The notes: generated by a model from the letters alone, not told the origin. Positions 1,430 through 15,851 are shown, counted from the first letter of the stretch. The stretch is DNA of 15,990 nt from Clostridia bacterium (GCA_030595925.1 JAUVLC010000056.1:1-15990); one strand, 5' to 3'. Numbers and translations are program-made.

Positions 1430-3316
1430 ATGGAAGAAAAAATAATGGGTTTACTTAAGGATAAATGCGGGGAAGAAAATTATAAAAAACTTGAATTATT
1501 AAATAATCAAAAAGTTAATGATTTTATTACCGGATATATTCAACTATGTAATCCGGATAAGGTTTTTGTGCGTACCGATTCTGAGGAAGATGCTTCCTAT
1601 ATCAGAAATAAAGCAATAGAAAACGGAGAGGAAAAAAAATTGGGTATTGATGGACACACGGTTCATTTTGACGGATATTATGATCAGGCAAGAGATAAAG
1701 GAAACACTAAATATTTGTTGGCGAAAGGGGTAGATTTTGGTCCCAGTATTAAAGGAATAGATAAGGAAGCAGGCCTTGCTGAGATTAAGGATTATTTAAA
1801 AGACAGTATGGGTGGGAAAGAAATGTACATTTGTTTTTTCTGTTTGGGACCTTTGGATTCTGAATTTTCCATTGTTTGTGTGCAAATTACGGATTCAAGT
1901 TATGTAGCACACTCCGAGGGGATTCTTTATCGTAGTGGATATGAATCATTTAAAAAGAAGGGAAATTTTGATAAATTTTTCCGATTTGTTCATAGTGCCG
2001 GGGTTATCGAATCAGGGGTAAGTAAAAATGTTGCTCAACGCCGCGTATATGTGGATTTGCAGGATAGAATCGTTTTTAGTACTAATACTCAATATGCGGG
2101 GAATACTGTGGGACTTAAAAAATTGGCTTTACGCCTGGCTATTTATCAGGCTTCCAAAGAAGATTGGTTAGCCGAACATATGTTTGTGATGGGTATCCAT
2201 AATCCGAAAGGCCGGGTGACTTACTTTACAGGGGCTTTTCCCAGTGCCTGTGGAAAAACCTCAACCTCAATGCTGCCCGGGGAAACAATTGTTGGTGATG
2301 ACATTGCTTATTTAAGAAATAAGGAAGGGAAAATATACGCTGTAAATGTAGAGAGTGGAATTTTTGGAATTATTCGTGATGTTAATCCGGAAAGCGATCC
2401 TTTAATTTGGGAAGCACTTACTTCTTCGGGAGAGGTCATTTTTTCTAATGTTCTGGTGACTGAAAAAAATGCTCCTTCCTGGTTGGGAGATGAGAGAGGA
2501 ATTCCTGAATCAGGAATTAATTATTCAGGTGAATGGGTAAAAGGTAAAAAAGATGCCAAGGGAAATGATATAACTTCTTCCCATAAAAACGCAAGATATA
2601 CGGTTCGTATTGGCAGATTAAAAAATCGTGATGTCATGGCCGATGATGAGCAGGGGGTGTTGGTAGGCGGAATTATTTATGGCGGCAGGGATTCCAATAT
2701 TTCTGTTCCGGTACAGGAGTCATTTGATTGGAAACATGGGGTGTTAACTATGGGGGCTTCTCTGGAATCGGAAACAACGGCGGCAACATTAGGACAGGAA
2801 GGGGTAAGAAAATTTAATCTTATGGCTAATCTTGATTTTTTATCTATTCCTCTGGGAAAGTATATAAATAAACATCTTGATTTTGGAAGTAAATTAACTT
2901 CCGCCCCTATTATTTTTGCGGTTAATTATTTTCTGAAAAATAGCAAAGGTGATTATTTAACTGAAAAAGAAGATAAACATGTATGGATGAGATGGATGGA
3001 AGAGAGGATACACAAGGAAATAGATGCGATTAAAACCCCAACGGGCTTTATTCCTGAATATAAAGACCTTAAAAGATTGTTTAAAGAGGTTTTAGACAGA
3101 GAGTATAGTAAAGAAGAGTATATAGAGCAATTTACTTTAAGAGTTACTGAAAATATTGCTAAGATTGAGAGGGTTATTGCTGAATATAAAGCTAACGTTC
3201 CTGATTCTCCCCAGGTGTTATTTGAAGTTCTGGAAGGACAAAAACAGGGATTGGAAACATTAAAAGCTGAATATGGGGATTACATTTCTCCGGAAGTCTT
3301 AAAAACTTCCCGTTAA
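1430..3316 (+). CDS. pckG: GTP-dependent phosphoenolpyruvate carboxykinase
   Basis: PEP carboxykinase interconverts oxaloacetate and PEP with GTP/GDP in the cytosol, serving gluconeogenesis or anaplerosis. The 628-residue length and motifs are those of the GTP family rather than the ATP (PckA) family. The P-loop-like FPSACGKTS (residues 270-278) carries the reactive Cys274 and Lys276. It is followed by IVGDDIAYLRN with its acidic metal/nucleotide ligands and by the IFGIIRDVNP block. MFVMGIHNPKGRV upstream supplies the metal-binding His, and the N-terminal CNPDKVFVRTDSEED region matches the family. The usual FPSACGKTN ends in Ser here, a mild variation. The ATG at 1430 has a good ribosome binding site (AAGGGAG, 9 nt spacing). 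Its stop codon overlaps the convergent response-regulator stop by a few bases. Confidence 0.96.
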   Translation: MEEKIMGLLKDKCGEENYKKLELLNNQKVNDFITGYIQLCNPDKVFVRTDSEEDASYIRNKAIENGEEKKLGIDGHTVHFDGYYDQARDKGNTKYLLAKGVDFGPSIKGIDKEAGLAEIKDYLKDSMGGKEMYICFFCLGPLDSEFSIVCVQITDSSYVAHSEGILYRSGYESFKKKGNFDKFFRFVHSAGVIESGVSKNVAQRRVYVDLQDRIVFSTNTQYAGNTVGLKKLALRLAIYQASKEDWLAEHMFVMGIHNPKGRVTYFTGAFPSACGKTSTSMLPGETIVGDDIAYLRNKEGKIYAVNVESGIFGIIRDVNPESDPLIWEALTSSGEVIFSNVLVTEKNAPSWLGDERGIPESGINYSGEWVKGKKDAKGNDITSSHKNARYTVRIGRLKNRDVMADDEQGVLVGGIIYGGRDSNISVPVQESFDWKHGVLTMGASLESETTAATLGQEGVRKFNLMANLDFLSIPLGKYINKHLDFGSKLTSAPIIFAVNYFLKNSKGDYLTEKEDKHVWMRWMEERIHKEIDAIKTPTGFIPEYKDLKRLFKEVLDREYSKEEYIEQFTLRVTENIAKIERVIAEYKANVPDSPQVLFEVLEGQKQGLETLKAEYGDYISPEVLKTSR

Positions 3317-3915
3317 AGTTCCCCGATTAAATCTTTTATTTTTACCCCCAGGGCATGGGATATTTTATAGAGGGTCATTATTGATGCTGAATTGCGGGCA
3401 TGTTCAAGTTGAGAGATTAAACTCTTGGATAGATTTGTATGTTGGGAAAGTTGGTCTAATGTCCAGTCTTTTTGTTTGCGGTATTTTTTTATGCGTTTTC
3501 CTATCAGGGTATTCATTTTGAGCGTTGCATCTTCAATTATACCCATATGTTGCAGTTGCCTTTTGATAGAGTTTTTTAATTGTTCAGGATCAAAGGGCTT
3601 TTTTATATAATCAAATGCCCCGTTTTTAAGCGTAATCAAAGCACTGTCTACGGAAGGATAACCGGTTAAAATAATTATTCCTATTTTAGGATCTATCTCT
3701 TTTATCTTTTTAAAAACTTCCAGTCCATCAATTGAAGGTAATTTTAAATCCAGAATTCCGATGTTAAAATAATTTGGTTTAAATTGTTCTATTGCTTTTT
3801 GTTCATCCGTAAAATAAACTACTTCCCATCCGTAAGAGGTAAGTTTTTCCTTGAGAAATTTACAAAGGTCCTCCTGGTCGTCAATAACGAGTATTCTTAT
3901 TGTTGATTTTGCCAT
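3313..3915 (-). CDS. Response regulator, REC plus XRE-type HTH
   Basis: This is a 200-residue regulator, probably the phosphorylation target of the histidine kinase encoded directly upstream. The receiver domain spans about residues 6-120 and keeps all key residues: acidic pair Asp12/Asp13, phosphoacceptor Asp56 (ILDLKLP), Thr84 (ILTGYP) and Lys105 (IKKPF). The output domain (about 136-198) is a Cro/C1 (XRE, HTH_3) helix-turn-helix: IGKRIKKYRKQKDWTLDQLS, then LSKSLISQLEHARNSASIMTLYKISHALGV. XRE outputs are rare in response regulators, which more often carry OmpR, NarL, LytTR or NtrC/Fis domains. The ATG at 3915 has a strong ribosome binding site (AAGGGGG) in the 31-nt gap after the kinase. 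It is the last gene of the minus-strand operon and converges on pckG with overlapping stops. Candidate targets are the ketosynthase operon itself, but no operator was recognised. Confidence 0.9.
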   Translation of the reverse strand: MAKSTIRILVIDDQEDLCKFLKEKLTSYGWEVVYFTDEQKAIEQFKPNYFNIGILDLKLPSIDGLEVFKKIKEIDPKIGIIILTGYPSVDSALITLKNGAFDYIKKPFDPEQLKNSIKRQLQHMGIIEDATLKMNTLIGKRIKKYRKQKDWTLDQLSQHTNLSKSLISQLEHARNSASIMTLYKISHALGVKIKDLIGEL

Positions 3916-3946
3916 AATTATTTCCCCCTTGAGCTGATTTTGCTGT

Positions 3947-6157
3947 TTACTTTTTAGGATGTTTGATTTTTTCCACGTTTTTTCTTAAAGTATTATTTGT
4001 TTTATAATTAAGCAAATTTTCAGATAAAGGGAGTTTTATAATCATTTTTGTCCCTTGACCTATTACGCTCTCCACATTAAAACTACCCTGGTGTTGTTCA
4101 ATTATACGGGAACTAATACTTAAACCCAATCCTGCACTGGATTGCGATTCTTTAGTAGTATAAAACGGATTAAAAATTTTGTCAATATTTTCTTTTGCAA
4201 TTCCACAACCGGTATCAGTAATTTCAATGTTTATTGTTGGTGATGAAAATAACAATTGCTGAGGGGAAAAGCAGGGTTTAAATGTCTTTATAATGATGGT
4301 TTTTTTGTTGGTTAATGCAACAGCCTGGATGCTATTTTCTATTATATTGATAAACACCTGTTCGATTTGGACAGGATTGATTTTTATCTCCGGGAGGTTA
4401 GATTCAAGTTGCCTGATAATTTTTATTTTGTTTTTAGAAATTTGGTGGTCAAAAAAATCCAATGAGTTTTCAATAAGTTTATTGATATTGAACAAATATT
4501 TATCCGGTAGTCCTTTCTGAGAAAAAATAGAAAATCCTTTTACGATTTTCGCTGCCCGTGTTACTTCTTTTTCGATAATATCTAAATCTTTAGGGGTATT
4601 CGTTTTATAAACACTTTTTGATAAGTGTGCGTTTATGTTTATTTTAGTTAATGATTTATTTAGCTCGTGAAACATTTCACTGGATAATTGCCCGATTATA
4701 GCAAGTTGTTCGTTTTGAGCAATCCATTCCTGTTGTTTTTTTATTTTTTTAATTGATTGGGCATTACTAATAGCAATAGCTGATTGATTGGCCAGGGTAG
4801 TCAGTAATTTTAAATCTTCCCGGTTGAATAAATCTCCTGATTGTTTGTTTCCCAGATTTAACAAACCAATTAATTTATTATTTATATAAAGGGGCACGCA
4901 TACTTGGGATTGTATACAGAGCAGGTCTTGATGAAGCTGTTGTAATTCTTTGCTTTTTCTATGGGAAAGCATATTTCTTTCAACCTCTTCTTGCAGTAAG
5001 ATGAAATTATGCTTGTTAAAATATTGAACTAATCTGTTTTGGTGGGTTAATTGAATTTCGTTAAGTCTATTATTTTTTTTCAAACCTTCAAGATATTTGA
5101 AAGCATAGGAGTTTTTCGATTGATCATAAAGGATTAAAGAGCAGGAAGATAGATGCATTGTCTTATAAATAGTGGTTACAATTAAAGGGATTAATTCTTC
5201 CAGTTCTAAAATTGTAAGCAAAGATGTCGTGAAATTTTTGAGGATAACCTGATAGTTGTATTTATTTTTGAAAAGGATAGTTTCTAATAAATTTTCCAAT
5301 TTTTTTCGTACGGAGAAAAACCCCAAAAGAAATAAAATAACACCTACGAGAATTAAAATAAAAGGTTCATCTATTTTGTGGGTGTAGGTCATTTCCCTAA
5401 TTACAAAAATACCCATTAAATAACTCAGTCCTACTAAAAAGAGCCAACAGGAATAAACAAGCCCTTTTTTAAAAACAATATTAATGTCTAATAATCTAAA
5501 TTCAATAATAGCATAGGTTATTAATAAAGAATAAATGCAATTAGCGATATTGCCCATGGGATAAATACAAAAACCGTGTACAGACATAAAATTTGTGCTT
5601 CCGCCAATAATAGAGATGAAAGATCCCCAGAAAACATATTTTATTTGGTTGGATTTATAACCCTCTGCTTTTTTATAGGCATTATATAAAAGGTAAAGGG
5701 AGTAAAAAACATAAAAAGAAAAAATAATTATAAAAAACAAATCCCCTATACCTGCTTTGGGGTAATATCCCCAGTAATGTTTTAACAGCTCTTTATTTAT
5801 TAAAGGAAAACCAAGAGTGGTTGGTATGAAGAACAATAAACTGAAAAGATAGCCTATTTGCAGGATTTTTTTATTAATTTTACTTTCGTTTTCGGTAAAG
5901 ACTAAGACAAAGTGAAAAAAACAAGAATGAAGAAAAACCAATCCGGGTGTATGAATAAATTTAGTGAAAAAAAGAGCTTCCTGATGGGATGAACTGCTGT
6001 TTCTGAGCAGAGCCCCCGTATTCCAGATTCCTACACAAAGATTTAAAAGCGCAAAAATTTTATTGACTATACAGCGGTGGTTTTTAATTAAAATAAAAAT
6101 AGCTAAAGAAAAATTTAATAAAGCCGCTACTAAAATAGGGAGAAGATAAATGTTCAT
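3947..6157 (-). CDS. Membrane sensor histidine kinase (7TM-GAF-HATPase)
   Basis: This 736-residue sensor kinase has an N-terminal membrane region (about residues 1-285, roughly eight hydrophobic segments). The phrase RLLDINIVFKKGLVYS (221-236) is typical of the histidine-kinase N-terminal 7TM family. A GAF-like domain follows (about 310-466). The H-box is FHELNKSL with His497; the usual N-P after the His is replaced by K-S. The HATPase_c domain has an N-box with Asn604/Asn608, a G1 box DTGCGIA (648-654), an F-box FNPFYTTKES (662-671) and a G2 box GLGLS (676-680). The layout resembles PrsK-type kinases of exosortase/exopolysaccharide systems, but the partner here is not an NtrC-like PrsR. The ATG is 13 nt after the ketosynthase stop, with AAAGGAA as ribosome binding site, so it is co-transcribed with the polyketide-like genes. 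The signal sensed is unknown. Confidence 0.9.
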   Translation of the reverse strand: MNIYLLPILVAALLNFSLAIFILIKNHRCIVNKIFALLNLCVGIWNTGALLRNSSSSHQEALFFTKFIHTPGLVFLHSCFFHFVLVFTENESKINKKILQIGYLFSLLFFIPTTLGFPLINKELLKHYWGYYPKAGIGDLFFIIIFSFYVFYSLYLLYNAYKKAEGYKSNQIKYVFWGSFISIIGGSTNFMSVHGFCIYPMGNIANCIYSLLITYAIIEFRLLDINIVFKKGLVYSCWLFLVGLSYLMGIFVIREMTYTHKIDEPFILILVGVILFLLGFFSVRKKLENLLETILFKNKYNYQVILKNFTTSLLTILELEELIPLIVTTIYKTMHLSSCSLILYDQSKNSYAFKYLEGLKKNNRLNEIQLTHQNRLVQYFNKHNFILLQEEVERNMLSHRKSKELQQLHQDLLCIQSQVCVPLYINNKLIGLLNLGNKQSGDLFNREDLKLLTTLANQSAIAISNAQSIKKIKKQQEWIAQNEQLAIIGQLSSEMFHELNKSLTKININAHLSKSVYKTNTPKDLDIIEKEVTRAAKIVKGFSIFSQKGLPDKYLFNINKLIENSLDFFDHQISKNKIKIIRQLESNLPEIKINPVQIEQVFINIIENSIQAVALTNKKTIIIKTFKPCFSPQQLLFSSPTINIEITDTGCGIAKENIDKIFNPFYTTKESQSSAGLGLSISSRIIEQHQGSFNVESVIGQGTKMIIKLPLSENLLNYKTNNTLRKNVEKIKHPKK

Positions 6158-6170
6158 ACTGAATGTTCCT

Positions 6171-7418
6171 TTAGTTAAAATACCTTTTTATAGCTAACGC
6201 TGCGCACCTTCCGGCAAACCCGGAAGTATTTATTAAAGTAACTTCTACTTGAGCCGGACGCGCTGAATTAGGGACATAGTCCAGATCGCAGTCAGGATCA
6301 GGATTCTGATAATTTATTGTTGGGGGGATAAAATTTTTCTCCATTACCAATAAAGAGGTTATTGTTTGCATTGCTCCTGCTGCTCCCGGAGGATGTCCCA
6401 GCATTGACTTTATTGAACTTATCGGAATTTTATAAGCGTATTTTCCGAATACCCTTTTTATGGCCACTGTTTCCATTTTTCCGTTTATAGGGGTAGAACT
6501 TCCGTGGGCACAAAGATATCCGACTTGTTCGTTCTCTATTTGGCCTGCCTCCAGTGCTTCTTTCATTGCCCGGGCTGATTCTTCCCCTGTTGGTTCCAGC
6601 GAGGTCATATGATAAGCAGTGAAACTTGCTCCGTAGCCAACGATTTCCCCATATATTTTTGCTTTTCTTTCTAAAGCATGCTTAAGTTCTTCTAAAATAA
6701 TTATTCCTGCCCCTTCTGCTAAAATAAAACCGTCCCGCTCTTTATCAAAAGGCCGGCTGGCTTTTTCCGGAGTATCGTTGCGATGCGACAAGGCACGCAG
6801 GGAACAAAAAGAATTAAAAGTTTCGGGTGTAAGTGGGGCTTCTGTGCCTCCTGCCAGTATAATGTCTTGTAGATTATCCCTTATTGTGCAATATCCCAGT
6901 CCAATAGCATCGGTAGCAGAGGTGCACCCGGTAGAAATAACATTACTCTGTCCCTTTAATTTAAATTCCAGAGAAATATATCCGGAACAGGCACTGGGAA
7001 ACCAGGAAAGATATAAGTAGGGACTGATACTTTCCGGTCCCTTAGTTGCATAAAAATTAAATTGTGGTTCGGCAATATTTACTCCCCCAACACCTAATCC
7101 GACAAAAGTTCCTATTTTTTCCTTGTTTTCTTCTTCAAGCTTTAATTTAGAATCATTAATAGCTAATTTTGCTGATGCTATTGCAAATTGAAAAGCCCTG
7201 TCTATAAAAGGGATTTTTTCTTTGTCTATATAAACGGCAGGATTAAAATTATGTATTTCTCCTGCCATTTGGCTATAAAAATTATCGGCATTAAACCGGG
7301 TAACCCGTACGACACAATTTTTGCCGGAAACAAGTCCCTGCCAGAAAAAGTCTTTTCCGACACCATTGGGTGCTATTACCCCTAAACCGGTAACAACAAC
7401 CCTTCTTTTTTTGTACAA
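6171..7418 (-). CDS. Beta-ketoacyl synthase (FabF/KS-alpha-like), catalytically intact
   Basis: This 415-residue thiolase-fold condensing enzyme has the KAS II layout. Catalytic residues are all present: nucleophile Cys165 in STGCTSATDAIG, His305 in CAHGSSTP, Lys337 in ISSIKSMLGH and His342 in GHPPGAAGA. It should perform decarboxylative Claisen condensation with malonyl-ACP. The C-terminal glycine loop reads SGFAGRCAAL instead of the usual GFGGTNA-type sequence, so it is diverged from housekeeping FabF. Only one base separates the upstream ketosynthase-like stop (TAA, 7422-7420) from the TTG start at 7418; the ribosome binding site GGGGA lies inside the end of the previous gene, implying translational coupling. 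Tight pairing with a Cys-less homologue and an SRPBCC protein makes it KS-alpha of a type II polyketide-like system rather than plain fatty-acid FabF. No ACP is nearby. The product is unknown. Confidence 0.9.
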   Translation of the reverse strand: MYKKRRVVVTGLGVIAPNGVGKDFFWQGLVSGKNCVVRVTRFNADNFYSQMAGEIHNFNPAVYIDKEKIPFIDRAFQFAIASAKLAINDSKLKLEEENKEKIGTFVGLGVGGVNIAEPQFNFYATKGPESISPYLYLSWFPSACSGYISLEFKLKGQSNVISTGCTSATDAIGLGYCTIRDNLQDIILAGGTEAPLTPETFNSFCSLRALSHRNDTPEKASRPFDKERDGFILAEGAGIIILEELKHALERKAKIYGEIVGYGASFTAYHMTSLEPTGEESARAMKEALEAGQIENEQVGYLCAHGSSTPINGKMETVAIKRVFGKYAYKIPISSIKSMLGHPPGAAGAMQTITSLLVMEKNFIPPTINYQNPDPDCDLDYVPNSARPAQVEVTLINTSGFAGRCAALAIKRYFN

Positions 7419-7419
7419 T

Positions 7420-8712
7420 TTATCCCCGATAATCGTTTAATAATAAACATGAATTTTTTCCCATAAAACAGCAAGAAGTCTGTAAAACAAAATTAATATC
7501 CTTTTTACAACTTTTTTTTGTTAGATGTTTGGAAAATTCCTTTGAATAAGGCAATTCACAATTGATTAAGGGGGGAACTATTTTATTTTTAATGGCCATT
7601 GCCGATGTTATGCCTTGTAATGCACCCTGTGCTCCCAAAGTGTTTCCCGTTATCGGAGAAATGGCGCTAATTAAAAAGCTATCATTTCTTTCTTTAAAAA
7701 TATATTCTATAGAATTCATTTCCATTATATCATATTCCTTAATGCATAGCCCATGGGTATTTATATAATCAACATTTTCCGGTTCTATATTAGCTTCTTT
7801 AAACACATCGTTTATTGCTCTTTTCATTTCTGTCCCATTTGTATCCGTATGAAACGAATCATAAGCACTATTATTATTTTGATAACCTGCAATTTCACAA
7901 TAAATATTTGCTTTACGCCGCAGGGCATGTTCGAGTTCTTCTAAAACAAGAATTCCCGCTCCCTCGGATAAAACAAATCCACCAGTATCTTGATTGAAAG
8001 GACGGCTTGCCTTTTGGGGGTTATCCGTTATTTTAGATAAAACACCCAATTTATCAAACGAACATAAAAAAGCAGAGATCAGTGGTGCTTCCGTTCCTCC
8101 GGCAAACATTACTTCATTTTTGCCTTCCTGAATTATACGATAAGCCATTCCCATAGCGTCGGTTCCGGAAGTGTTGCCATTGCATACGGTAAGGGTTTCT
8201 CCTTTTAAACCCAGACGAATAGAAAGTAATCCTCCGGTTCCACAGGGAAAGAAAGCAACTGATAAAAAGGGACTACCTCTTTTTGGCCCAAAATCCCTTA
8301 AAACATTTAATTCTTTATTGGCAAATTCCACTCCACCAACAGCATTACCGATTATGCTTCCGATTTCTTGCCGATTTTCTCCTTCAAGATCCAATCGGCT
8401 GTCTTCCAGAGCCATCAAAGCTGCAGCAATTGCATATCTGTTAGAGCGGTCGGTATGTCTTATCTCTTTTGTTTTAAAGTATGATAGAGCATCAAATCCC
8501 TGTATTTCTCCGGCAACCTGATTATTTTCTGTTTCATAACTAAAACGGGTTAATTTCTTTATTCCCGATTGGCCATCTAATAAACTTTTCCAGAATGCTT
8601 CTTTACCGATTCCGTTAGGAGCAATAACTCCTAATCCGGTTATTACTACCCGTTTCTTATTTGTTTGTTGATAAAATTGTTTAGTTTTGTTTTCCATATA
8701 GGTAAAAAGCAA
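7420..8712 (-). CDS. Ketosynthase-like chain length factor (KS-beta), active-site Cys replaced
   Basis: This 430-residue KAS-fold protein is clearly homologous to the ketosynthase that follows it. Three catalytic positions are substituted: the nucleophile Cys is Asn180 (CNGNTSGTDAMG against STGCTSATDAIG), the Lys is Ser352, and the second His is Asn357 (GNTLGAQGA against GHPPGAAGA); His320 remains. In classical type II polyketide synthases the chain length factor has Gln at the Cys position, so this is a CLF-like partner with a different substitution. It presumably heterodimerises with the adjacent intact enzyme. The C-terminus is Cys-rich and diverged. The start is uncertain: TTG at 8712 has a weak, close AGG, and ATG at 8697 lacks a clear ribosome binding site. 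It is the second gene of the operon, 39 nt after the cyclase-like gene. Confidence 0.85.
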   Translation of the reverse strand: MLFTYMENKTKQFYQQTNKKRVVITGLGVIAPNGIGKEAFWKSLLDGQSGIKKLTRFSYETENNQVAGEIQGFDALSYFKTKEIRHTDRSNRYAIAAALMALEDSRLDLEGENRQEIGSIIGNAVGGVEFANKELNVLRDFGPKRGSPFLSVAFFPCGTGGLLSIRLGLKGETLTVCNGNTSGTDAMGMAYRIIQEGKNEVMFAGGTEAPLISAFLCSFDKLGVLSKITDNPQKASRPFNQDTGGFVLSEGAGILVLEELEHALRRKANIYCEIAGYQNNNSAYDSFHTDTNGTEMKRAINDVFKEANIEPENVDYINTHGLCIKEYDIMEMNSIEYIFKERNDSFLISAISPITGNTLGAQGALQGITSAMAIKNKIVPPLINCELPYSKEFSKHLTKKSCKKDINFVLQTSCCFMGKNSCLLLNDYRG

Positions 8713-8751
8713 ATCGCCTGTATTTTTTTACGGTTCTGAGATTTTTTTTAT

Positions 8752-9195
8752 TTAATTTCCGTTTTTTTCTATTTTATTTTTTAGTGCTATTAAGACATTT
8801 CCGGCTGTTTTTTCTATACGGGGACGGGCAACAAGTTTTTCCAGAAACCAACCTACCAGAGGAATGTGTAATTTAAATATATGAATAATGGTTACTTTTG
8901 TTCCGTTGGGAAGTTGTTCGAAAAACCATTTTACTCTCATTCCTTTTAATCTTCCTTCTATTTGTTCAAATTCTATTGATTTGTTGTAATCAAACCAGGC
9001 TTTGGATTTCCACCGCATAATGCGTTGATTAATTAAAGCTGCTCTTTCAATTATTATTTTTCCGTTTTCACGGCCTATAATTTTACTTTTTTTATATACG
9101 GGAATAAATTCCGGATATCTTTCTACCGCTTGGGCAAGTTTATAGATTTTTTCTAAATTAGCATTAATGATAATAGAATTTTCCAGTTTAGTCAT
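8752..9195 (-). CDS. SRPBCC (START/Coq10-RatA-like) putative cyclase/aromatase
   Basis: This 147-residue protein fits a single SRPBCC helix-grip domain: the N-terminal beta strand with IIINANLEKIYKLAQAVERYPEFIP (about residues 8-32), a central antiparallel sheet, and a long C-terminal helix (about 118-143). The ERYPEFIP signature is shared by RatA/Coq10 proteins and by polyketide aromatase/cyclases of the TcmN N-terminal type. Its position as first gene before a KS/CLF pair favours a polyketide cyclase or aromatase that binds the poly-beta-keto chain; a lipid- or quinone-binding role cannot be excluded. It has no signal peptide. The ATG at 9195 has a strong ribosome binding site (GAGGAG, 7 nt spacing), consistent with being the operon's first gene. 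No convincing promoter was recognised upstream. Confidence 0.8.
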   Translation of the reverse strand: MTKLENSIIINANLEKIYKLAQAVERYPEFIPVYKKSKIIGRENGKIIIERAALINQRIMRWKSKAWFDYNKSIEFEQIEGRLKGMRVKWFFEQLPNGTKVTIIHIFKLHIPLVGWFLEKLVARPRIEKTAGNVLIALKNKIEKNGN

Positions 9196-9597
9196 TTTTA
9201 TTCTCCTCTATTATTTTTTGGTAATGTCAAAAATATCTGCACATTTCTGTTCTGATTTCTGTCCATGTAACTACAGGCTTTATAGAGTAAGCCTGCGTAT
9301 AATTAGCTCCTGTTGCACAAAGCCTATGTCAGGTCGGAGGACAGATTGTATCACAACCCCTTTTTTGGTAGTCGCAGGCTTTAGCCTGCGAAAAATCTCC
9401 AACGATAACGCAGGCTAAAGCCTGCGGCTACCTCCCCCTATTTACAGAAGATTTTCCCTTTATCTACAAACTTCTTTCTGTTTTTCTTTCATACCTTTTT
9501 TGACACTACCCTGCTTTTTAAAGAGTTCTATAACATAGACAACATTTCATAAAACTCTTATCTATTTTTTGATTTATGTATCTAATATTTTATAAAA
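9196..9597. other. Repeat-containing spacer between the PKS-like operon and metF
   Basis: This 402-bp gap separates two minus-strand transcription units. It contains a double palindrome (9368-9431), a degenerate relative (9274-9295: CAGGCTT, 8-nt loop, AAGCCTG), and a long-loop inverted repeat AAGAGTT (9521-9527)/AACTCTT (9553-9559) just downstream of metF. The last has no T-tract on the minus strand, so it is a poor terminator candidate. The short plus-strand ORF here crosses the repeats and the cyclase start and is not credible as a gene. Confidence 0.6.
9368..9431. repeat. BIME-like pair of inverted palindromic repeats
   Basis: Two 23-nt arms (9368-9390 and 9409-9431) are inverted copies matching at 22 of 23 positions, separated by 18 nt. 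Each arm contains its own perfect hairpin, CGCAGGCTTTAGCCTGCG or its equivalent, with flanking GTAG/CTAC. This is the organisation of REP/BIME elements: two palindromic units in opposite orientation in an intergenic region. GC content is far above the surroundings. A decayed unit lies at 9274-9295. REP elements are usually mobilised by a Y1/HUH TnpA-REP transposase, which is not in this window. Confidence 0.75.
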
Positions 9598-11132: not shown

Positions 11133-14100
11133 GTGAAAAAAACATTAACAACCTTTTTAGGAATAATAACCATATTGAGTATTAATATAAGGGTGATCAA
11201 TGCCCAGCAAGGCGGACCGGATAGCTACGGCTATATGTGGACAGATAGCAAAGATCCTGCCCCAAAAACAACTTATGGCTGGGATGATGATATTTCCTCA
11301 ACAGGATCCAATATCGGAACACACAATGATGATGGAGAATACGGACCATATCCCATTGGTTTCACTTTTACTTTCTATGGTCAGAATAAAACACAATTTT
11401 ATATCGGAAATAACGGAGCAATACTATTTAATACCGATAATTTGCCGGCTACCAACTCAACAATACCTACTACATCCGCGCCTGATCCTATTATTGCCCC
11501 TTTTTGGGACGACTTAGACAGTGCCGGATCAATTTATTACGAAACAAAAGGAACATCCCCAAATAGATTTCTGATAATTCAATACGACAATATTAATCAT
11601 AAAGATAGACAAAACCAATATATAACCTTTCAGATAATATTATTCGAAACAACCAATGCAATAAAATTTCAATATAAGGATGTAGATTTTAATAGTTCTT
11701 CTTTTGATGGTGGTGCTTCCGCAACTGTGGGAATAGAAGACAACGCCGGTGATATTGGCCTGCAATATTCTTTTAACACGGCCTCTCTTGAAGATAGTAT
11801 GGCTATTCTTTTTGAACTTCCGGATAATAATCCTCCCGATGTCCCCACACTGGTAAATCCGGCAGACCTCTTTATTACCCGGGATAATACACCTACTTTA
11901 ACCGCCCATTATTCCGACCCTGATTCAAATCCGGGCCAAATTAATTTTGAAATTGCTTCCGATTCAGGGTTTACTTCTATCCTCGCCAGTGGAAATTCAA
12001 GCCAGGTTGATAGCGGAACCAATGCCTCATGGACACCAGGCAGTAGTATCAGTGACGGAATAAGATATTGGCATGCACAAGCCGAAGATATTCACGGCTC
12101 TACCTCTACATGGAGCACTTACCGTACAATAACTATAGAGACTGTTCGACCTATTACTGCTTCGGTAACTACACCTGCTAACGGTGGAAATTATAATCAA
12201 TATACTATGCCTGCCACCTTTCAGGGTAAAGCAGCTGATAACCTCGGAGGGGTTGGACTATACGAAAATAGCACTATCTTTTATCTAAGGAGAGAAAGTG
12301 ACGGCAGGTATTGGAATGGAATTAATTGGGTAGATCTATTTTCATGGCTTTCCACTACCCATAACGCAACCACCGGTAATACAGAAGAGACCTGGAACGA
12401 TGACATTACTTTACCTTCCTCCTGGACCGATGGGACATACTTTGTTAGAGCCAGAGCAACAGATAAAGCCAGTAATCGTTTTTCAGGACCTCAAATAAGT
12501 TTTTCTTTCAGCGCAGACTTACCGGAAATAACCAATCTTACCCTTGATCCAATAGATCCGTTCAATGGAGAGAGTGATGTAGAAATAACCATTGAATTCA
12601 GTAAAGAAATGGATACATCTATCAATCCTACAATAAAGTTTGGTGCAACCGACCCTTATGAAACTTATACTTTAAGCACAGCAGGCGTATGGAGCCAGGG
12701 TGTAGGATATGATATTTATACTACTACTATGACCGCAACTGAAATCACCACTGCCGGCAGCGGAAACTATCATTTTAACATCAGCCAGGCAGAAGATGAG
12801 TTCGGTTATATGATGAAGCCGGACACTAATTACACTTTTACTATCGATACGGATGAACCAGTAATAAACACTCTTACTTTGAATCCTCCCAGCCCTTTTA
12901 ACAACAGTCAAAATGTTCAGATAACTATTGAATTCAATGAAGAAATGGATACATCGGTCAATCCGTTAATAAGGTTCGGACAAAATCCCCCTTATACTGA
13001 TTATACTTTAAGCACACCAGGCTCGTGGAGCCAGGGAGCAGGATACGATATTTATACTACTACCTTGATTACAAGTGAGATTACTACCGCCGGCAGCGGA
13101 AATTATCATTTTAACATCAGTGAAGCAGAAGATGAAAACGGTAATACTATGCTGGTAAATACTGCTTACACTTTCATCATAGATTTAGATGACCCGGAAA
13201 TAACCAATCTTACCTTGAATCCTCCCAGCCCTTTTAACGGAAGCCAGAATATCCAGGTAACTATTGAATTCAATGAAGAAATGGATACATCGGTCAATCC
13301 GTTAATAAGGTTCGGACAAAATCCCCCTTATACTGATTATACTTTAAGCACAGCGGGCTCGTGGAGCCAGGGAGCAGGATACGATATTTATACTACTACT
13401 ATGACTACAACAGAAATCACCACCGCCGGCAGCGGAAATTATCATTTTAACATTAGCGAAGCAGAAGATGAAAGCGGTAATACTATGCTGGTAAATACTG
13501 CTTACACTTTCATCATAGATACGGTTAAACCGGTAATAATCAGTCTTACTTTAAACCCTCTCAGTCCTTTTAACGGAACCCAGAATATCCAGGTAACTAT
13601 CCATTTCAGCAAAGAGATGAATATTTCAGTCAATCCGTTAATAAGGTTCGGACAAAATCTCCCCTATACTGATTATACTTTAAGCACAGCAGGCGTATGG
13701 AGCCAGGGAGCGGGACACGATATTTATACTACTACCTTGACGGCAGGTGAAATTATTACCGCCGGTAGTGGAAATTACCATTTTAATATCAGTCAGGCAG
13801 AAGATGACATAGGTAATGTTATGCAGGTAAATACCGGATACACTTTCATTATTGATGTAGATAAACCGGTAATAACCAGTCTTACTTTAAACCCTCCCAG
13901 TCCTTTTAACGGAACCCAGAATGTCCAGATAACTATCCTTTTCAACGAAGAAATGGATACATCAGTCAATCCCTTAATAAGGTTTGGTATAATTAACCCT
14001 TATACTGATTATACTTTAAGCACAGCGGGCTCGTGGAGCCAGGGAGCAGGATACGATATTTATACTATTACTATGACTACAACAGAAATCACCACCGCCG

Positions 14101-15851
14101 GCAGCGGAAATTATCATTTTAACATTAGCGAAGCAGAAGATGAAGTAAATAATATTATGGACCCAAATACTATTTATACTTTCATCATCGATGTAGATAA
14201 ACCGGTAATAACCAGTCTTACTTTAAACCCTCCCAGCCCTTTCAACGGAAGTCAAAATATCCAGGTAACTATTGAATTCAACGAAGAAATGGATACATCG
14301 GTCAATCCCTTAATAAGGTTTGGTATAAGTAACCCCTATACTACTTATACTTTAAGCACAACAGGCGTATGGAGCCAGGGAGCGGGATACGATATTTATA
14401 CTACTACCTTGACGGCAGGCGAAATTACTACCGCCGGTAATGGTACTTACCGTTTTAATATTAGTCAGGCAGAAGATGAAGCAAACAACATTATGAACAC
14501 AAATACTAATTACTCTTTTGTAATAGATACGGATTTACCGTCAATAACCAGTCTTACCCTTGAACCGGCAAGTCCCTTTAACGGCCATCAGAATGTAAAA
14601 ATAACCATCGAATTCAGCGAAGAAATGAATACCGGCGTTGACCCAACAGTAATGTTTGGACAGAGTAGTCCATATACCGATTATACTGTAAGCACAACGG
14701 GCTCGTGGAGCCAGGGAGCGGAATATGATATTTTCATTACTACGATGACTATAAATGAAATCAACATTGCCGGCAGCGGGGATTATCATTTCAATATTAG
14801 CGGAGCAAAAGACACAATAAATAAAACTATGTCCGTAGATACAAATCATTCTTTCAGGATAAATCTGGTTTATCCTATAAACTTTGCCGATGAATCACCA
14901 ACTTCTTCCCAATGGCAAAACAGTTCTACAGTAACCTGCCGGATAACCGTGGTTGACCTTACTGATACCGCTATTGATACCGGCACCATAAAATACCGAA
15001 TTGCAGATTCTATATCGGCATTTTCTACTCCCGGAACATGGCATGAAAACAATATTGAATGTATCGATACAACCGCTATCACTGCAAGATTTAGCGTTAG
15101 CATAACCGAATTGCAAGAAGGAGAAAATAATTATATCAAATGGAAATGTAGTAATATAGACGGTAGTGAAGGGATATCAAATCCGTACCAAATAAAAATA
15201 ACCGCTAATCAATCTCCTCAGCTAAATATATTACAACCGGACGAAAATGCCTATACCGGAATTCATCCCTTAATCCAAGCTACTGTATCCGATGAAGGCA
15301 GGGGAATAGACCCTGATTCAATAAACATTGTTTTAAGTGAATATCACGGTAGTAATATAATAACAGTAACAGGTTCTCAACATCCTGAAATTTATAATCC
15401 AAACAAAGGATTGATTTCTTATCTCTATCAAAATAATGCTTTAACCAACGGAAAAAGATATACGGTAACTATTTCGGTAAGAGACCTGGGATATAACCAA
15501 CCCGGAGAAACTCAAAAATCAGTTAATTTTGTGGTTAAAGAAAAAGCGATTGTTGATTTTGTACCTTATCCTTCTCCCTTTGATCCTTTGAAAATTCCAC
15601 TTACTATCAGATATGTTTTATCCAAAAAGGCCGGAGTAACTATTAACATTTACGATGTAAGCGGGAAATTAATAAAAACAATAATTAAAAGCGAAGAACG
15701 GGAAGCAGGGGAACATACTGATGATAAATGGGTAGGAACTGATTATGCCAATCAACCTTTAGCCAATGGTATTTATTTTTGTGAAATTGTAGTCGAAAAC
15801 GAAGATGGTGAACATAGAATGTATAAATCTTTAGCTCTTTTTGGGAAATAA
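11133..15851 (+). CDS. Large secreted Ig-repeat surface protein with FlgD-like C-terminal domain
   Basis: This 1572-residue protein starts with a signal peptide (MKKTLTTFLGIITIL..., likely cut after INA, about residue 24). Residues 25-235 form a beta-rich domain with PIGFTFTFYG and IAPFWDDLD phrases common in exported proteins of environmental bacteria. Residues 235-340 resemble a fibronectin/Ig module. Residues 464-1247 are seven 112-residue Ig-like repeats of the Big_5/Big_12 type (PVITSLTLNPPSPFNG...FNEEMDTSVNP...YTFIID). Two further Ig-like modules follow (about 1248-1472). The C-terminal 100 residues (PYPSPFDP, NIYDVSGKLIKTI, NGIYFCEI) match FlgD-Ig/type-A sorting-like domains, suggesting surface anchoring or secretion. 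The GTG at 11133 has an AGGAGA ribosome binding site. A c-di-GMP-I riboswitch in its leader suggests an adhesin-like role; no enzyme domain is visible. Confidence 0.85.
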   Translation: MKKTLTTFLGIITILSINIRVINAQQGGPDSYGYMWTDSKDPAPKTTYGWDDDISSTGSNIGTHNDDGEYGPYPIGFTFTFYGQNKTQFYIGNNGAILFNTDNLPATNSTIPTTSAPDPIIAPFWDDLDSAGSIYYETKGTSPNRFLIIQYDNINHKDRQNQYITFQIILFETTNAIKFQYKDVDFNSSSFDGGASATVGIEDNAGDIGLQYSFNTASLEDSMAILFELPDNNPPDVPTLVNPADLFITRDNTPTLTAHYSDPDSNPGQINFEIASDSGFTSILASGNSSQVDSGTNASWTPGSSISDGIRYWHAQAEDIHGSTSTWSTYRTITIETVRPITASVTTPANGGNYNQYTMPATFQGKAADNLGGVGLYENSTIFYLRRESDGRYWNGINWVDLFSWLSTTHNATTGNTEETWNDDITLPSSWTDGTYFVRARATDKASNRFSGPQISFSFSADLPEITNLTLDPIDPFNGESDVEITIEFSKEMDTSINPTIKFGATDPYETYTLSTAGVWSQGVGYDIYTTTMTATEITTAGSGNYHFNISQAEDEFGYMMKPDTNYTFTIDTDEPVINTLTLNPPSPFNNSQNVQITIEFNEEMDTSVNPLIRFGQNPPYTDYTLSTPGSWSQGAGYDIYTTTLITSEITTAGSGNYHFNISEAEDENGNTMLVNTAYTFIIDLDDPEITNLTLNPPSPFNGSQNIQVTIEFNEEMDTSVNPLIRFGQNPPYTDYTLSTAGSWSQGAGYDIYTTTMTTTEITTAGSGNYHFNISEAEDESGNTMLVNTAYTFIIDTVKPVIISLTLNPLSPFNGTQNIQVTIHFSKEMNISVNPLIRFGQNLPYTDYTLSTAGVWSQGAGHDIYTTTLTAGEIITAGSGNYHFNISQAEDDIGNVMQVNTGYTFIIDVDKPVITSLTLNPPSPFNGTQNVQITILFNEEMDTSVNPLIRFGIINPYTDYTLSTAGSWSQGAGYDIYTITMTTTEITTAGSGNYHFNISEAEDEVNNIMDPNTIYTFIIDVDKPVITSLTLNPPSPFNGSQNIQVTIEFNEEMDTSVNPLIRFGISNPYTTYTLSTTGVWSQGAGYDIYTTTLTAGEITTAGNGTYRFNISQAEDEANNIMNTNTNYSFVIDTDLPSITSLTLEPASPFNGHQNVKITIEFSEEMNTGVDPTVMFGQSSPYTDYTVSTTGSWSQGAEYDIFITTMTINEINIAGSGDYHFNISGAKDTINKTMSVDTNHSFRINLVYPINFADESPTSSQWQNSSTVTCRITVVDLTDTAIDTGTIKYRIADSISAFSTPGTWHENNIECIDTTAITARFSVSITELQEGENNYIKWKCSNIDGSEGISNPYQIKITANQSPQLNILQPDENAYTGIHPLIQATVSDEGRGIDPDSINIVLSEYHGSNIITVTGSQHPEIYNPNKGLISYLYQNNALTNGKRYTVTISVRDLGYNQPGETQKSVNFVVKEKAIVDFVPYPSPFDPLKIPLTIRYVLSKKAGVTINIYDVSGKLIKTIIKSEEREAGEHTDDKWVGTDYANQPLANGIYFCEIVVENEDGEHRMYKSLALFGK
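12522..14873 (+). repeat. Seven tandem 336-bp coding repeats
   Basis: Units start at 12522, 12858, 13194, 13530, 13866, 14202 and 14538, each exactly 336 bp (112 codons) with no insertion or deletion. Units 2 and 3 share a 95-bp identical run (12922-13016 and 13258-13352), while units 1 and 7 are the most diverged. The pattern indicates tandem duplication with central homogenisation. Each unit encodes one Ig-like beta-sandwich domain of the surface protein. Confidence 0.95.

Follow-up and report, generated by a model that had tools for sequence, protein, structure and literature searches.

What is a ketosynthase (KS) doing in one operon with a membrane histidine kinase (HK)? The question is raised by five minus-strand genes in a stretch of 15,990 nucleotides from a Clostridia bacterium (GCA_030595925.1, JAUVLC010000056.1:1-15990; the window, by which we mean this whole stretch), which constitutes one contig (C86) of a 2.6-Mb genome in 193 contigs, 97% complete. 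A preliminary description interpreted these genes as a minimal module like a type II polyketide synthase (PKS), with the core known from aromatic pathways, unusual in that a complete two-component system was embedded in it. The five open reading frames, their coordinates and the intergenic gaps of 39, 1, 13 and 31 nt were confirmed, and Pfam and NCBIfam agreed with the gene families of the first reading, i.e., an SRPBCC protein, two KS proteins, a 7TM-GAF HK and a REC-XRE response regulator (RR) (Table 1). The CLF-like protein more likely starts at an ATG at 8697 than at the TTG at 8712, since the congener protein aligns there. The operon has MTHFR as its neighbor at one end and purC and PEPCK at the other, where the 3' end of the RR gene shares 4 nt with the convergent gene for PEPCK (1430-3316). 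Consensus promoters were no more frequent in the window than in shuffles, and no significant match was found for a promoter conserved between the window and its congener G002. Between MTHFR and the operon, at 9367-9432, lies an inverted repeat of 24 nt (GGTAGTCGCAGGCTTTAGCCTGCG) that is near-perfect (96%) and REP/MITE-like.

Table 1. Features of the operon, numbered from the first nucleotide of the window (G002, congener; G185, closest relative, from another phylum)
Feature	Position	Strand	Evidence or remark
SRPBCC (START-like) protein, polyketide cyclase/lipid-binding family, 147 aa	8752..9195	(-)	Pfam Polyketide_cyc, 1.2e-13
Gap between SRPBCC and CLF-like genes	8713..8751	(-)	Two ICMT-family genes here in G002, one in G185
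CLF-like (degenerate KS) subunit	7420..8712	(-)	Pfam ketoacyl-synt N+C
KS, intact C-H-K-H active site	6171..7418	(-)	Pfam ketoacyl-synt N+C
7TM-GAF HK	3947..6157	(-)	Pfam HisKA_7TM + GAF + HATPase_c
RR, REC + XRE-type HTH, 200 aa	3313..3915	(-)	Response_reg 3.4e-25, HTH_3 5.8e-12

The CLF-like and KS genes are kept together, and the KS-HK-RR unit is intact, in all three genus genomes (the window's, G001 and G002). Both congeners possess the RR and retain the order CLF-KS-HK-RR, again facing PEPCK, with the G002 genes spread over two contigs. The neighborhood, which had been expected to be conserved in related genomes, was thus present throughout the genus, and G002 carried two extra methyltransferase genes of the ICMT family between the SRPBCC and CLF-like genes. 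The window KS is 88 to 89% identical to the congener KSs and 50% identical to that of G185, while the CLF-like protein is 87 and 77% identical in the two congeners. Because the unit is kept in 3/3 genus genomes and the KS-HK pair recurs far outside the genus (see below), we regard the five-gene unit as real and as more than a chance association. For the CLF-like gene, a collection scan with two narrow 7-residue patterns, which is a weak test, matched the genus MAGs RS_13_36 and RS_2_16 and none outside the genus.

Likeness of the SRPBCC protein to cyclases/aromatases, as initially proposed, is suggested by a match to TcmN ARO/CYC in the PDB (E value of 2e-5), but the protein also matched TTHA0849 in the PDB (1.5e-8) and a RatA model. 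At the equivalent position, G185 encodes an SRPBCC protein 39% identical to that of the window. A single-sequence structure prediction of the window protein reached a pLDDT of 38 and was discarded. Since ICMT-family genes occur not only in G002 but also in G185 of another phylum, an ICMT step was probably present ancestrally and later lost in the window lineage. When the window was searched for a scar of the lost genes, the match obtained upstream of the CLF-like gene lay mostly inside the CLF coding sequence and was not clearly above shuffles. Two distant ICMT-family genes in the window's genome were considered as relocated copies and dismissed, as they are not orthologous.

Catalytic residues of both KS proteins were read by alignment to E. 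coli FabF. In the KS, Cys, His, Lys and His are all intact and the active-site motif is STGCTS, as in KSalpha, so that the intact Cys-His-His expected of a type II PKS KSalpha is present. In the CLF-like protein, Cys is replaced by Asn, Lys by Pro and the second His by Asn, with only the first His retained. Its active Cys is therefore lost, but the Gln typical of KSbeta is absent: the replacements in actinobacterial KSbeta are Q, D and R, in contrast to N/P/N in the window. In the PDB, two different FabF-like chains of entry 9s5h (B and C) match the window KS (320 and 251 bits).

A tree of 53 KSs, which included HK-linked KSs, Streptomyces KSalpha and KSbeta, FabF genes and the genome's own FabF, recovered a single clade (100/99), separate from FabF, that comprises the KS and CLF-like protein of the window, every HK-linked KS and the Streptomyces KSalpha and KSbeta. 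The grouping of the two KS proteins inside housekeeping FabF clades, which would have spoken against the preliminary description, was hence not seen, and a tree constrained to join the genus KS to the FabF of the window's genome was rejected (p-AU of 0.031). In the best tree, the window KS and the CLF-like protein grouped with the G185 KS (86/88), the CLF-like branch being long (1.22) beside that of the KS. The phylogeny accordingly favors, but does not prove, that the CLF-like copy arose separately from actinobacterial KSbeta: neither a grouping of the CLF-like protein with Streptomyces KSbeta (p-AU of 0.22) nor an exclusive clade of HK-linked KSs without Streptomyces (p of 0.30) was rejected, and the position of the Streptomyces KSs inside the HK-linked clade may reflect long-branch attraction. 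The shared clade of HK-linked KSs and Streptomyces KSalpha/KSbeta bears on how type II KS/CLF pairs arose from FabF.

As noted in the preliminary description, ACP, KR and PPTase genes are absent from the operon, and an ACP dedicated to the cluster, as expected of a type II PKS, is thus missing. Elsewhere, the window's genome encodes a FAS ACP beside fabF (C58), one AcpS and, as revealed by the genome-wide search that had been suggested, one orphan ACP (G000:C130). The latter lies in L045:10051-13144 between genes for a TetR-type regulator, a GNAT-like protein and a patatin-like protein (families assigned by sequence reading) and is a candidate carrier for the window KS. Assignment to the aryl polyene clusters was rejected, because by comparison with the E. 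coli CFT073 cluster the operon lacks ACP, dehydratase, LolA-like, MMPL and other APE genes. Of the aromatic type II PKS-like module originally proposed, the clade shared with KSalpha/KSbeta and the TcmN match stand, but actinobacterial KSbeta carries other substitutions than the CLF-like protein, whose gene was found only in the genus by the narrow pattern scan.

To determine the distribution of the kinase, 336 mostly unrelated genomes were searched with its sensor part alone, and 27 loci were read outside the genus. In 12 of them, a FabF-like KS gene was located directly upstream of the HK gene on the same strand, and at one further locus a KS preceded two tandem HKs. Within the phylum of G278, a kinase profile search of 68 genomes found the kinase in 35; among the 30 loci read, KS was directly upstream of HK in 29 (the remaining locus ends at a contig edge), commonly with overlaps of 1, 4 or 10 nt. 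Together with the genus and G336, both searches yielded KS-HK pairs in 45 genomes of 15 families and at least five phyla (those of G000, G185, G044, G026 and G278). For the search of the 336 genomes, only ∼0.03 loci with a KS directly upstream would be expected by chance by our estimate, which assumes ∼3 KS genes per ∼2,500-gene genome. As a control from the KS side, no HK was found within 1.5 kb in 26 other KS loci (0/26), many of which adjoin an ACP gene. An acyl enzyme gene is hence conserved beside a membrane histidine kinase. In the kinase tree, KS linkage occurred in several clustered branches, and some related kinases had no acyl enzyme neighbor. The closest relative, G185, exhibits the order SRPBCC-ICMT-KS-HK without a CLF. 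These results indicated that, contrary to the first reading, the kinase is no exceptional insertion into an aromatic pathway but part of a conserved KS-HK core that mostly occurs without CLF or SRPBCC genes.

Upstream of the KS-HK pairs, genes for B12-radical SAM proteins or ICMT were found, and further kinases, sigma-54-type regulators and an HD-GYP-like regulator are encoded downstream in relatives; some loci also have an MMPL exporter gene or FadL-like genes nearby (HD-GYP-like and FadL-like by sequence reading). Two loci (L112:7670-13224 and L165:1885-7448) contain one KS followed by two tandem paralogous 7TM-GAF kinases, i.e., a local kinase duplication. The active sites of the HK-linked KSs were found to vary: C-H-H is present in G185, G029, G044 and G189, C-H-N in G253 and G116, C-H-Q in f16 and in 28/28 complete sequences of the G278 phylum, and C-N-I in f25. 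One common reaction is therefore not required, and the loss of the second His in many of these enzymes would argue against ordinary decarboxylative elongation.

Other acyl enzymes can take the place of the KS beside the same type of kinase: a BioF/Kbl-type acyltransferase in G228 (187 bits against an autoinducer synthase model with a cut-off of 428; BioF/Kbl fits better) and thioester-reductase-like proteins in G088 and G286. G088 and G228 belong to one family, and their sister kinases and orthologous B12-radical SAM proteins are 54% and 47% identical, respectively, whereas the enzyme encoded in between differs. The radical SAM partners resemble the lipid biosynthesis families HpnJ and rSAM_ladder_B12, with scores below the cut-offs. 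The window's genome itself harbors a second arrangement without KS (L114:4872-11976, G000:C120), in which genes for FadL-like, SRPBCC, acyl-ACP-reductase-like, 7TM-GAF kinase, FadL-like and SRPBCC proteins follow each other. Of all observations, the exchange of the enzyme beside a retained kinase type hints most strongly at an acyl-derived product as the input read by the kinase.

The window HK has intact H (FHELNK), N and G boxes, and the REC Asp of the RR (LDLKLP) is intact as well. An identity with PrsK was rejected (NCBIfam TIGR02916, 100.7 bits at a cut-off of 300). With PrsK/PrsR of the XrtA/PEP-CTERM system, the window HK has in common the general layout of multiple TM segments, GAF and kinase domains, but the operon lacks exosortase or EpsI genes and has a KS as neighbor instead.

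Gene content, catalytic residues, phylogeny, the conserved KS-HK adjacency and the exchange of KS for other acyl enzymes together led us to a reading in which the operon is a product-sensing unit: intermediates on the FAS ACP would be turned by the KS into a hydrophobic product, acyl or polyketide in nature, to be sensed by the kinase. We give this reading an even chance of being correct. In such a unit, the KS and its degenerate CLF-like partner would extend or condense an acyl chain from the fatty acid ACP pool, the SRPBCC protein would bind, cyclize or shield what is formed, which an ICMT-type enzyme would methylate in relatives. Being hydrophobic, the product would partition into the membrane, where the 7TM-GAF kinase of the same transcript could sense it and hand phosphate to the REC-XRE regulator, which would set transcription, probably including that of its own operon. 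The KS-CLF heterodimer, substrate, product, ligand, phosphotransfer and regulated genes are what we infer here. The KS-HK adjacency would also be compatible with a kinase that responds to the state of the membrane, or to some upstream cue, and regulates the enzyme; the resemblance of the HK family to PrsK, the related kinases with no acyl enzyme neighbor and the differing active sites of linked KSs likewise count against this reading.

If the operon were instead a true minimal type II PKS, a poly-beta-ketone would be built on the FAS or orphan ACP and cyclized by the SRPBCC protein, and the two-component system would be a pathway-specific regulator answering an outside cue. Such a function would agree with the grouping of KS and CLF with Streptomyces KSalpha/KSbeta, the KSalpha-like STGCTS motif, the TcmN ARO/CYC match and the orphan ACP at G000:C130, and KS-CLF pairs outside the actinobacteria, including candidate phyla, have already been catalogued (14 phyla in all; PMC10132072). 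We nevertheless consider it unlikely: the operon is devoid of ACP, KR, oxygenase and exporter genes, the CLF replacements are N/P/N rather than the KSbeta-type Q and R, the nearest relative has SRPBCC-ICMT-KS-HK but no CLF, and the partner conserved across phyla is the HK, not the CLF or the cyclase. Given the conserved KS-HK core, the detection of the CLF only in the genus by the narrow scan and its substitutions unlike those of KSbeta, we would sooner expect a sensed lipid than an aromatic pigment as the product.

A lipid need not be a signal, though. The KS might make or tailor an unusual membrane lipid, with the 7TM-GAF kinase sensing the state of the membrane and adjusting synthesis, for which DesK-like logic is the model. 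The multi-TM sensor with its GAF domain is compatible with such a homeostat, as is the fact that all linked enzymes act on acyl chains and that the radical SAM partners resemble HpnJ and rSAM_ladder_B12, yet the single-enzyme loci are unlike complete lipid pathways, and the sigma-54 activators and HD-GYP-like regulator downstream in relatives point to a wider regulatory output; we therefore judge it unlikely. Finally, KS and HK could be joined by history only, in an operon inherited or transferred without functional coupling and with the CLF-like copy as a decaying duplicate. The long CLF-like branch and the apparent loss of ICMT genes from the window lineage would be in line with decay, but the CLF is intact and well conserved in congeners, KS-HK persists in 15 families, often with overlaps of 1 to 10 nt, and the synthase is exchanged while the kinase is retained, which makes a purely historical linkage very improbable.

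The product-sensing unit that we favor has parallels among known signaling systems. RpfF differs from a KS in having a crotonase fold, and PqsBC is FabH-like, with a transcription factor, PqsR (MvfR), as receptor. As in RpfF/RpfC/RpfG, genes for an acyl-substrate enzyme, a multi-TM histidine kinase and a regulator occur together in the window, and the G029 locus has an HD-GYP-like regulator; however, the window regulator is REC-XRE and the window enzyme is a KS. The kinase RpfC senses DSF and binds RpfF, and CqsS senses CAI-1 (PMC13220807). Alpha-hydroxyketone signaling by CqsA/CqsS and LqsA/LqsS likewise combines a single synthase gene with an adjacent membrane histidine kinase, and in G228 a kinase of the window's family adjoins a PLP acyltransferase gene, whereas the window enzyme is a KS. 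The heterodimeric KS PqsBC, one subunit of which is inactive, synthesizes the signal HHQ (PMC4807248) and resembles the window pair of one catalytic and one inactive KS-fold subunit, but it is not known to have a linked kinase. Actinorhodin-type PKSs, in turn, resemble the window in having a KS beside a degenerate KS of the same clade, the STGCTS/G motif and a TcmN-like SRPBCC neighbor; they differ in that the window has no cluster ACP, KR or tailoring genes and its KS has a histidine kinase as conserved partner.

No account of the KS-HK linkage was found in the open-access literature, and the main text of PMC10132072 mentions neither histidine kinases nor two-component systems. The linkage looks like signaling by a synthase and a receptor kinase, although we do not class it as a quorum-sensing system, and the pair may represent an undescribed family of lipid-based signaling rather than merely an unusual pigment or antibiotic pathway. 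More tentatively, and with less than even confidence, we suggest that KSalpha-like KSs, often translationally coupled to a 7TM-GAF HK, make the ligand of that kinase, which would amount to an undescribed but widely distributed class of cell-cell signaling by lipids or polyketides, and that the genus duplicated its KS to form a KS/CLF heterodimer whose CLF-like subunit would have originated separately from actinobacterial KSbeta. Known lipid quorum-sensing kinases rely on few synthase types, to which a KS-kinase pair distributed among many uncultivated phyla would, if true, add a class. It would also provide a function for orphan FabF-like genes that annotation labels as fatty acid enzymes, and since the receptor kinases would report their own product, the molecule could be found by reporter assay rather than by blind chemistry. 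Apart from the operon, the window encodes a repetitive protein of 1572 aa (11133-15851) with repeated Ig-like units and a FlgD_ig/Por_Secre_tail-like C terminus.
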